From Exiguobacterium sp. s146 (GTDB lineage Bacteria; Bacillota; Bacilli; Exiguobacteriales; Exiguobacteriaceae), in assembly GCF_018618415.1 (NCBI RefSeq), contig NZ_JACSMA010000001.1:1054001-1118000 (forward strand): a stretch of DNA of 64,000 nucleotides, read 5' to 3'. How positions within the stretch are numbered: the first letter of the stretch is position 1; each line of letters begins with the position of its first letter. The position numbers were made by a program, and so were the translations under genes. Below, in pieces: positions 2,692 through 24,408 of the stretch. The notes under the pieces were generated by a model, which saw nothing but the letters and a program-made list of their open reading frames with translations, ran no database searches and was not told where the DNA came from.

Positions 2692-3262
2692 AACGATTAT
2701 TGAGAGTCTGCTGTTCGTCGTCGGCGAAGAAGGGATGGAAGTGCGTGCCCTCGCGGATACGCTCGACATTTCCGAAGCCGCCGCCCGCGAACAGTTGAGT
2801 AAGCTAGAAGCATCGTTTAAAGACTCCGGTCGCCCGTTCCAATTGATCGAGTCGGCGGGCGTGTACAAGCTCGTGACGGTCCCAGAGGTATCCGAGTATA
2901 TTCAACGTTACGTTGGCACGATGGCCGAACAAGCGTTATCTCGGGCAGCGATGGAGACGCTCGTCATCATCGCGTATAAACAACCGGTCACCCGGGCCGA
3001 TATCGAGGAAGTTCGGGGCGTCAAAGTCGAACGCGTCATCCATACGCTGTTATCAAAAGGGTTGATTGAGTCGGCCGGACGGGCCAAGACGATCGGACGG
3101 GCCAAGTTGTACCGGACGACCGAGCATTTCCTGGACCATTTCGGGTTTAATTCTCTTGAGGAATTGCCCCCATTAACGTTTGAAGACGAGCTCTCGGACG
3201 AAGGCGATTTGTTCTTCGGCCAGCCGTCTGCGATTATGCAAGATAGATTGGAGAATGAATAA
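2669..3262 (+). CDS. scpB: Segregation and condensation protein B
   Basis: 197 residues, two winged-helix domains (about 1-85 and 90-170) that dimerise and bind the ScpA linker in the SMC complex. Diagnostic segments are [48 protein letters not shown] and [26 protein letters not shown]. The start is ATG 2669 inside the end of scpA, with an AAAGGAAAGG purine run immediately before it; translational coupling is likely. The stop is immediately followed by the rluB start, giving a compact three-gene unit. Confidence 0.94.
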
Positions 3263-21626: not shown

Positions 21627-21727
21627 GTGTGGAAAATCGACGTTCTATCTTCTCAGGTTCGTCATTTTATGACAAGATGAAAGAGAACGTGAAGTTCGAT
21701 TAAGAGATGAAGAGGGGGACGTTTTCA

Positions 21728-22804
21728 ATGGAACAGCTCGTGTCAACGACAGAGAAGGAAGCAACGACACCTGTGATGAAAGCGATTCAAAAACATACGT
21801 CCGGATTCGGGGCCCAATTGGTCGAAGCACCAATCCCGACACCAGGCGCTGGGGAAGTGTTAATCAAAGTGAAAGCGACATCGATTTGCGGGACCGATGT
21901 CCACATTTATGAGTGGGACGACTGGGCGAAGAGCCGGGTCAAGCCGCCGTACGTGTTCGGTCACGAGTTCGCGGGGGAAGTCGTGGCGCTCGGGGAAGGG
22001 ACGAAACGCATCAAGGTCGGCCAGACCGTATCGGCCGAGACGCATATCGTCTGTCACCAGTGTAAACAGTGTTTGCGGGGGCAATATCACATCTGTAAGA
22101 ACACGAAAATCATCGGCGTCGACACGCAAGGCTGTTTCGCCGAGTACGTCGTCATGCCTGAAGAGAACTTGTGGGTCAACCCGGAAACGATGCCGGCCAA
22201 GCTCGCCTCGATTCAAGAACCGCTCGGCAACGCCGTCCATACGGTGCTCGCGAGTGACGTGTCGGCCAAGTCGGTCGCCATCGTCGGTTGTGGACCGATT
22301 GGTCTAATGGCCGTCGGTGTCGCCAAGGCGGCCGGTGCGAGCCGCGTCTATGCGATTGACGTCAACCCGTACCGGTTGAAGCTCGCCGAGGACATGGGTG
22401 CGGACGTCGTCATCAATAGCCTCGAGCAAAATCCGCTCGAACTGATTATGAATCAGACGGACGGGGACGGCATCGATGTCGTCTGCGAGATGAGCGGACA
22501 TCCGGTCGCCATCGACCAGGCGTTCAAGATGGTCACGGCAGGCGGGGACGTCAACGTGTTGTCACTCCCGGCCAAACCGGTCGCCATCGACTTGACGCGC
22601 GACGTCGTCTTCAAAGGGGTGCGTGTCCAAGGGATCACCGGTCGTAAGATGTATGAGACGTGGGGCCAAGTGTCGACCTTACTCGCGACGGGTCAGCTGA
22701 ACGTCGAACCGATTATCACGCACGTGTTCAAGCTCGAGGAGTTCGAGCAAGGTTTCGAGCTCATGCGGGCCGGGAAATGTGGAAAGGTCGTCTTAATACC
22801 TTGA
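21728..22804 (+). CDS. tdh: L-threonine 3-dehydrogenase
   Basis: 358 residues, zinc-dependent medium-chain dehydrogenase that oxidises L-threonine with NAD to 2-amino-3-oxobutyrate. Catalytic zinc ligands are in SICGTDVHIYEWD and FGHEFAGEV; the structural zinc loop is CHQCKQCLRGQYHIC; the cofactor loop is GCGPIGLMAVG. ATG 21728 has GAGGGGG upstream. The final Pro codon and TGA stop fall exactly on the right end of the transposon-like element that follows. Its partner kbl is normally immediately downstream but is here 422 bases away. Confidence 0.93.
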   Translation: MEQLVSTTEKEATTPVMKAIQKHTSGFGAQLVEAPIPTPGAGEVLIKVKATSICGTDVHIYEWDDWAKSRVKPPYVFGHEFAGEVVALGEGTKRIKVGQTVSAETHIVCHQCKQCLRGQYHICKNTKIIGVDTQGCFAEYVVMPEENLWVNPETMPAKLASIQEPLGNAVHTVLASDVSAKSVAIVGCGPIGLMAVGVAKAAGASRVYAIDVNPYRLKLAEDMGADVVINSLEQNPLELIMNQTDGDGIDVVCEMSGHPVAIDQAFKMVTAGGDVNVLSLPAKPVAIDLTRDVVFKGVRVQGITGRKMYETWGQVSTLLATGQLNVEPIITHVFKLEEFEQGFELMRAGKCGKVVLIP

Positions 22805-23204
22805 ACTACCCCCACCTACGTTTTCACTTAGAAGTGGAGGATTCCTGAGTTATCCGACCTATCAGTCGGAACCTAATCAGGCTAACCCCGTCGTCCCGAC
22901 GGTTGGAAGTTGAACTTGTCCGTTTCTTTAGTGCGGATGCCTACTTTGCTTGGTTTTCGCTATTTCGGTCATCCGCTAGGTGAACGTTGAAGATTTTACG
23001 TGACAGACGAACTTCCTGCCACAACCCTATATCTTCAGTTTTCAAGGAACGTGACACTTTATTTTTACCTGATTTCAGGAAGTTCACACACGATGTCGAA
23101 CCATTGACGTATCGAAAGACACGCCCGGTTCGAAGGCGATTCATCGTCCACTTTCACTAGGGCTTCGCCCGTGTCGTTTAGGAGTGGGAGTATTCTCGCC
23201 TAAT
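22801..23204 (-). mobile_element. Transposase-less IS200/IS605-like element between tdh and kbl
   Basis: About 400 bp, more AT-rich than its flanks, with no credible ORF. Read on the minus strand it ends CCTCCACTT, a short internal hairpin, AGGTGGGGG, then TAGTTCAA. The two arms pair over 9 bp with two G-T wobbles, the kind of subterminal hairpin plus TTCAA end seen at the right end/omega-RNA 3' end of IS605-family TnpB elements. The other end carries a similar block in the same orientation (plus strand TTAGGAGTGGGAGTATTC against TTAGAAGTGGAGGATTC), as expected for IS200/IS605 ends, which are not inverted repeats. The interior is rich in small hairpins (CCGTCG/CGACGG, TCCGAC/GTCGGA, GCGGATG/CATCCGC, GGGC/GCCC). 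Family assignment is by pattern, not by search; it could instead be another structured RNA or MITE. Confidence 0.6.
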
Positions 23205-23226
23205 TTTGATAAAAGGGGAAATCAAT

Positions 23227-24408
23227 ATGGCATTTGAACATATTACAGAAGCAATCAATGAAATGAAACAAGCGGGCACGTTCCGCTCGCTCGTACCTCT
23301 CGAGTCGGCGCAAGGAAACGAGGTCACGATCGACGGTAAGTCGCTCGTCCAGCTGTCGTCAAACAACTATCTCGGTCTCGCCAACCATCCACGCCTGAAA
23401 CAAGCGGCGATTGAAGCGGTCGAACAGTTCGGGGCCGGCACAGGCTCGGTCCGGACGATTGCCGGGACGTTCGAGATGCACGAGGCGTTCGAACGCGAGC
23501 TCGCCGAGTTCAAACATACGGAAGCGGCGCTCGTGTTCCAGTCAGGCTTCGCGACGAACCTCGGCGTCTTGTCGGCACTGCTCGGTCCGGAGGACGTCGT
23601 CATCAGTGACGCGCTCAACCACGCCTCGATTATCGACGGCATCCGGTTGACGAAAGCGGCCCGCCGCATCTATAAGCACACCGACCTCGCCGACTTAGAG
23701 GCAGCATTGAAAGAGACGCAGGACTACCGGACGCGTCTCGTCGTCACGGACGGCGTCTTCTCGATGGACGGCAACATCGCGCCGCTCCCAGAAATCGTCG
23801 AGCTCGCCGAGAAGTATGACGCGGCGGTCATGGTCGACGATGCGCACGCCTCGGGCGTGCTCGGCAAGAACGGTCGCGGTACGGTCAACCACTTCGGACT
23901 CGACGGCCGGGTCGCGCTCCAAGTCGGGACGCTGTCGAAAGCAATCGGTGTCCTCGGCGGCTACGTCGCCTGCTCGAACGACATCCGTGACTTCTTGATT
24001 CAAAAGGGACGTCCGTTCTTGTTCTCGACATCACATCCGCCAGCGGTCGTCGCGGCGAACCGTGAGGCGATTCGGGTCATGAAAGAAGAAGAGGAACTGT
24101 TCGACAAGCTATGGGCGAACACCGAGTTCTTCAAATCGGGACTTCGTGACCTCGGCTTCAACATCGGCCATGCGACGACACCGATCACGCCGGTCATGCT
24201 CGGCGAAGAGACGCTCGCGCACACGTTCTCGGACAAATTGAAAGACCACGGCGTGTTCGCACAGAGCATCGCCTTCCCGACGGTCGAGAAAGGCAAGGCC
24301 CGGATTCGGACGATCGTGACGGCGGAACATACCCGTGACGACCTCGAACGCGCGCTCGCCGCCTTCAAGGCGGTCGCGGAAGAACTGAACGTCACGCTTC
24401 ACGCATAA
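23227..24408 (+). CDS. kbl: Glycine C-acetyltransferase (2-amino-3-ketobutyrate CoA ligase)
   Basis: 393 residues, PLP-dependent alpha-oxoamine synthase. Landmarks: SSNNYLGLANHPRLK, GTGSVRTIAGTFEMHEAFER, the DDAHASGVLGKNGRG strand and GTLSKAIGVLGGY with the PLP-binding Lys. It cleaves the Tdh product with CoA to glycine and acetyl-CoA. ATG 23227 follows AAAAGGGG and comes 22 bases after the inserted element; without that insertion it would adjoin tdh. A promoter within the element is possible but not obvious. Confidence 0.94.
   Translation: MAFEHITEAINEMKQAGTFRSLVPLESAQGNEVTIDGKSLVQLSSNNYLGLANHPRLKQAAIEAVEQFGAGTGSVRTIAGTFEMHEAFERELAEFKHTEAALVFQSGFATNLGVLSALLGPEDVVISDALNHASIIDGIRLTKAARRIYKHTDLADLEAALKETQDYRTRLVVTDGVFSMDGNIAPLPEIVELAEKYDAAVMVDDAHASGVLGKNGRGTVNHFGLDGRVALQVGTLSKAIGVLGGYVACSNDIRDFLIQKGRPFLFSTSHPPAVVAANREAIRVMKEEEELFDKLWANTEFFKSGLRDLGFNIGHATTPITPVMLGEETLAHTFSDKLKDHGVFAQSIAFPTVEKGKARIRTIVTAEHTRDDLERALAAFKAVAEELNVTLHA

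Follow-up and report, generated by a model that had tools for sequence, protein, structure and literature searches.

TnpB is the ancestor of Cas12, and boxA is a motif for which a role in antitermination has been proposed upstream of rRNA. In transposons of the ISDra2 type, the omega-RNA (or reRNA) has a 3′ domain that ends at the right end of the element and carries a pseudoknot between the stem-1 loop and the 3′-terminal UUC; the guide comes from the flank, and the transposon-associated motif (TAM) lies at the left end (PMC8612924, PMC10097598). The ISDra2 guide corresponds to about 16 nt after the right end, and a donor-joint model explains how TnpB aids retention (PMC8612924). Cleavage in the ISDra2 system does not require the omega-RNA's 5′ region (PMC10097598). 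Other members of this world do not encode the proteins. PATEs, described for example in Halanaerobium hydrogeniformans, have IS605 ends, keep the right end together with some of the 3′ end of tnpB, carry neither tnpA nor tnpB, and are moved in trans (PMC7290912). IStrons combine IS605 ends with a structured RNA, a group I intron, and those of group A insert after TTGAT, ATTAT or TTTAT (PMC4227781). The bcr1-bcr3 repeats of the Bacillus cereus group are described as MITE-like, TTTAT-associated and partly transcribed (PMC6542083, PMC3446304). Finally, boxA is proposed to act in antitermination upstream of CRISPR arrays as well (Stringer et al., 2020, cited in PMC7862264, PMC12691694).

Here, we analyse an insert between tdh and kbl in a stretch of 64,000 nucleotides from Exiguobacterium sp. 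s146, called the window, to which all positions refer (Table 1). The insert is a mobile RNA-only element of the IS605 type. Its minus-strand RNA would probably be a non-coding chimera in which a 5′ domain made of a boxA and a pseudoknotted fold is joined to a TnpB omega-RNA scaffold with a UUCAA end; the element would be mobilised in trans by TnpA, and its RNA would be helped by boxA antitermination and taken up by resident TnpB. The broader proposal is a new class of mobile element consisting solely of RNA genes: guide-RNA transposons that stand alone, rely on an rRNA-type boxA and a novel pseudoknotted domain to provide full-length guides in trans for resident TnpB, and exploit the TnpA and TnpB of others for their spread and persistence. 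We see its chances as even.

The limits of the insert follow from comparison with relatives. The uninterrupted tdh-kbl junction (...ATACC-ATAA...GGGG...ATGGCATTTGAA) is read in 17 of 18 congeneric genomes, the eighteenth (L103) not being resolved by the pattern, and among the genomes read the insertion is peculiar to the host. This bears out the initial annotation, made from the window's letters only, in which an insert splits tdh from kbl; its start at 22801 also stands, and its end, placed at 23204, has to be moved four bases further, to 23208. Read on the minus strand, the element begins with CAAAATTAGGCGAG and finishes with GGGGGTAGTTCAA. It sits immediately 3′ of TTTAT, precisely and without target duplication, as in the IS200/IS605 family. 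The end of tdh reads ATA CCT TGA in the host and ATA CCA TAA in most relatives, so that T 22801 and the stop codon TGA (22802-22804) derive from the element, as had been proposed for the last base of the final proline codon and the stop codon. Neither tnpA nor tnpB was found inside the 408 bp, in agreement with the initial reading, and the longest ORF fully inside encodes 67 aa. With short ORFs only and covariation of the RNA type, we do not take the interior to be coding. Directly downstream of kbl, a further Exiguobacterium genome has an IS that carries tnpA (G013:C1:1748418-1750400, L115).

Table 1. Features of the tdh-kbl insert and its surroundings (positions in the window).
Feature	Positions	Strand	Basis or remark
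tdh ORF as listed	21707..22804	+	Last base of final Pro codon and TGA derived from the element
Predicted guide GGTATTAAGACGACCTTTCC, 3′ coding end of tdh	22781..22800	-	Adjacency to the right end; ISDra2 analogy
Whole RNA-only IS605-type element	22801..23208	-	408 bp; empty sites in relatives; ends common to ~30 copies
Right end, omega-RNA-like scaffold as in tnpB elements; stem 1 at 22888-22902	22801..22905	-	Alignment of the last 105 nt
Omega-type pseudoknot, stem-1 loop GGA (22894-22896) with UUC of terminal UUCAA (22803-22805)	22803..22896	-	Covariation
Helix Pc with conserved internal loops GAARTAGCGAAAACCAAGCARAGTA	22933..22976	-	Conservation; covariance-model match
Pseudoknot, Pb loop CGT (23007-23009) with ACG (22985-22987)	22985..23009	-	Covariation
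Helix Pa (23031-23037 with 22988-22994) around hairpin Pb (23016-23023 with 22999-23006)	22988..23037	-	Covariation
boxA-like motif GTTCCTTGAAAACT, 5′ end of the core RNA	23037..23050	-	Same motif in 16S leaders
5′ two-part hairpin of Exiguobacterium copies (element 75-112)	23097..23134	-	Both-side changes at several pairs
Left end (element 1-74)	23135..23208	-	Common to tnpB elements and tnpA-carrying IS; blastn 73-97% identity over the matched stretch
Target/TAM TTTAT (ATAAA on +)	23209..23213	-	At nearly all intact copies and most tnpB elements
kbl	23227..24408	+	Ribosome-binding site undamaged by the insert

The insert belongs to a mobile family. Matching ends occur in 36 of the 61 genomes searched, and about 30 near-full-length copies, 81-86% identical, were collected in Exiguobacterium genomes, far beyond chance; copies of the window's own subfamily that carry a name are from Exiguobacterium species. 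Most of the near-full-length copies occupy intergenic sites unrelated to one another; almost all follow TTTAT and end with TTCAA, and their flanks vary, save for a few shared insertions. The subterminal hairpin with TTCAA, first noticed in the window, recurs in nearly every intact copy. These observations fit the mobility that had been suspected. Splicing out of transcripts by a group I intron, as in IStrons, would account for IS605 ends around a structured RNA and for a TTTAT site; however, none of the 28 Exiguobacterium copies examined for it lies within an open frame, the window copy lies in antisense orientation within its operon, and Rfam gave no group I match even at permissive E-values. 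An element of this kind, which differs from IStrons by having no such intron, is thus extremely improbable as a splicing unit.

The ends are shared with protein-coding relatives. Element positions 1-74 and 304-408, stretches of 74 and 105 bp, correspond in sequence to the left and right ends of tnpB elements of 1.31-1.38 kb, which use TTTAT (a few CTTAT or CTCTAT) and TTCAA, and element 75-303 is missing from them. An IS200/IS605-style assignment of the ends had been made at the outset and is upheld by the TTTAT site, the lack of target duplication and this sharing. A TnpB-encoding relative with matching ends, which the initial annotation had suggested looking for, is present in the host genome itself (G000 C16:141121-142490); it encodes an intact TnpB of 393 aa with PF01385, PF07282 and PF12323, whose best solved relative is ISDra2 TnpB (E about 1e-98). 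The RNA-only element of G231 belongs to a second family, and its right end, too, matches sequence that directly follows TnpB domains on the 3′ side. IS with tnpA in other genomes have the left end in common with the element; with the shared ends and the TTTAT target, this suggests that TnpA would move it in trans. No Y1 transposase was detected in the host genome, and the window copy may therefore now be immobile there.

The most conserved part of the element lies between these ends. A core RNA of about 120 nt (element ~158-276) stands out, with a mean pairwise identity of 95.6% for boxA and Pa/Pb and 95.5% for Pc, against 83.6% for the left end, 76.2% for the linker and 89% for the omega part. 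A covariance model of the core, whose E-values are rough since it is home-made, matches the window at 22933-23050 with 132 bits. It finds the core in 48 of 399 Bacilli genomes from 31 genera, often in many copies, the copy numbers being lower bounds because at most nine candidates were scored per genome. Outside Exiguobacterium, the core is found for example on plasmids of Peribacillus asahii and Bacillus arachidis. One locus was found in viral contigs; phages gave matches to the element ends only and E. coli gave none. The flanks read usually show one plan, namely an IS605-like left end, the core, an omega-like 3′ part and a terminal [TG]TCA[AC]. In Rfam 15, searched at gathering and permissive thresholds, no family scored above its gathering score and only sub-threshold matches appeared; the core is an RNA family unlisted in Rfam 15. 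A Bacillus-type copy at positions 3001-3231 of CP079755.1, annotated as Klebsiella grimontii plasmid pNY3A (L400), adjoins a gene for a bifunctional DAHP synthase/chorismate mutase and is probably foreign Bacillus DNA in the assembly.

The fold of the core is established at the level of sequence comparison. In a sequence-only alignment of 35 diverse copies, with controls in which the partners were slid by 1-3 bases, Pa, Pb and the three-base pseudoknot have 96.1% of their cells paired vs. 23.7-48.1% in the slid controls, with a covariation score of 0.667 vs. at most 0.105 and both-side changes at 14 of 17 pairs. The pseudoknot alone is paired in 93% of cases, through the variants CGT/ACG, GGT/ACC, GCT/AGC, GTG/CAC and CAC/GTG. 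In the full-core subfamily, Pc bears a nearly invariant GCGAAAACCAAGC loop. In the L239, L244 and L249 subfamilies, this sequence sits in the Pb loop instead of Pc, with boxA and Pa unmoved. A resemblance to the glutamine riboswitch (CGUUCAYC...GAAGUAG) was dropped because there was neither an Rfam match nor a partner strand.

Such conservation weighs on another account, in which the insert is an ordinary MITE or PATE, that is, a passive internal-deletion derivative of a tnpB element moved by TnpA in trans, its interior being filler and its omega part a relic. Ends-only IS605 derivatives are known (PMC7290912), the left end is indeed shared with TnpA-bearing relatives, and like PATEs the element has a fixed insertion motif without target duplication, lacks tnpA and tnpB, and has hairpin ends in common with tnpB elements. 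Yet its interior is not derived from tnpB, covaries strongly across 31 genera and is more conserved than either end, which speaks for selection on it, and no tnpB was detected in the 219 core loci searched. This account thus appears improbable to us, and the element differs from PATEs by a dedicated, long-conserved RNA domain (boxA plus pseudoknotted core), often with its own promoter.

The core opens with the motif G(C/T)TC(C/T)TTGAAAACT. All 13 genomes read, the host's included, carry the same motif in their 16S leaders, at a distance of 62-227 nt from the 16S rRNA, and by position and sequence we take it to be the rRNA boxA, a name borrowed from established knowledge. In the window copy, boxA carries a single T-to-C change and the linker has diverged. 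Literature searches on boxA together with TnpB returned nothing relevant. Here as in the leaders of rRNA operons and CRISPR arrays, boxA comes early in an untranslated RNA, in the element perhaps with a guide to follow; in contrast to them, it lies in a transposable element and is followed by a specific pseudoknotted fold, and dependence on Nus factors is putative. In many copies from outside Exiguobacterium, an extended -10 (TGnTAnnAT) precedes boxA at a near-fixed distance; overall, 15 of 38 non-redundant upstream sequences have it, against a mean of 1.2 in shuffled ones. The Exiguobacterium copies, that of the window included, have no convincing promoter and lack the clear extended -10 of the other genera. 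Loci L243, L236 and L247 form a distinct subfamily with a long leader, GAGAAAACYGTTGGGTAGC...CTACTAAAGGCACT, before boxA (in a variant form in L236).

The boxA core could also be a separate regulatory or structural RNA, such as a pre-rRNA mimic, a stabiliser or a signal for processing by which the omega-RNA gains a free 5′ end, rather than an antitermination signal. Its structure does extend well beyond boxA, and the retention of GCGAAAACCAAGC after relocation to the Pb loop suggests a binding or catalytic module. Against this, nearly all divergent subfamilies retain boxA at the RNA 5′ end, and its sequence agrees with the motif of the 16S leaders; we hold the alternative to be unlikely, if somewhat less so than a passive MITE.

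At the other end of the RNA, the right end carries the scaffold expected of an omega-RNA, with the stem-1 loop and 3′-terminal pseudoknot known from the ISDra2 structure, which has the same topology (PMC10097598). The stem-1 loop can pair with bases three to five from the element 3′ end and the pairing covaries (GRA/UUC vs. GRC/GUC), 15 of 17 combinations being fully paired (A-U vs. C-G concordance, p=0.0014). The element RNA differs from that of ISDra2 in that it is neither overlapped by nor processed from a tnpB gene and has the boxA core in place of the 5′ region, a replacement that fits with the dispensability of that region in ISDra2. The initial idea of an omega-RNA-like minus-strand transcript guided by the 3′ end of tdh thus gains support from the scaffold, the pseudoknot and the adjacency of the predicted guide. 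A match to known omega-RNA covariance models, also suggested then, did not materialize: Rfam gave only Ref70, an Enterococcus sRNA, which resembles the omega-like part weakly (22825-22908, minus strand, 22 bits for a cut-off of 115; also at L141) and does not match the core. Judging from this weak match, Ref70 could be another guide RNA of TnpB. That the insert is a domesticated guide RNA regulating tdh-kbl would agree with its place in the operon and with a guide matching tdh, but the insertion is unique to the host among the genomes read and flanks differ between copies, making such a role very unlikely.

The core depends on TnpB at the level of genomes. TnpB is encoded in 47 of 48 core-positive vs. 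164 of 351 core-negative Bacilli genomes (Fisher p=2e-13), a comparison that counts genomes and not independent events; in G343, the one exception, no TnpB was seen. The association with TnpA is weaker (39/48 vs. 178/351). TnpB and the core could both track general IS load. No TnpB homologue was detected in 219 core-bearing loci (tblastn with one TnpB query, E 1e-5), including 130 cores flanked by 1.5 kb or more on either side. As none of these loci held a TnpB-encoding form, the element cannot be put down simply to the loss of a nuclease by an RNA at this site. Of the initial proposal of a mobile orphan or an RNA without nuclease, mobility is therefore retained, and neither a chance orphan nor simple nuclease loss is.

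We regard a mobile guide-RNA gene that stands on its own as the most economical account, and the element would then work as follows. Because the RNA ends at UUCAA, a transcript running out of the element would gain its guide from the flank. The boxA domain would most likely recruit NusB-S10, allowing RNA polymerase to pass Rho and the strong hairpins of this untranslated RNA and to reach the guide. The RNA would most likely be loaded by the TnpB of a resident tnpB element. The loaded TnpB would then cut the empty donor site, TTTAT-GGTATTAAGACG, favouring copy retention as in the donor-joint model, and the occupied locus would be safe from cleavage because the element separates TAM and target.

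If this holds, an RNA family found in 31 genera of Bacilli is tied to TnpB, guide RNAs can be selfish mobile genes apart from their nuclease, and the host rRNA antitermination machinery may be borrowed for guide RNAs. The element gives a direct way into whether TnpB acts in trans on the guides of other copies, and bears on what keeps the high-copy "MITE" repeats of Bacilli alive. On contigs of Seinonella peptonophila and Bacillus sp. B15-48 (L252-L331), many RNA-only copies are present, with about ten or more strict-pattern matches each.
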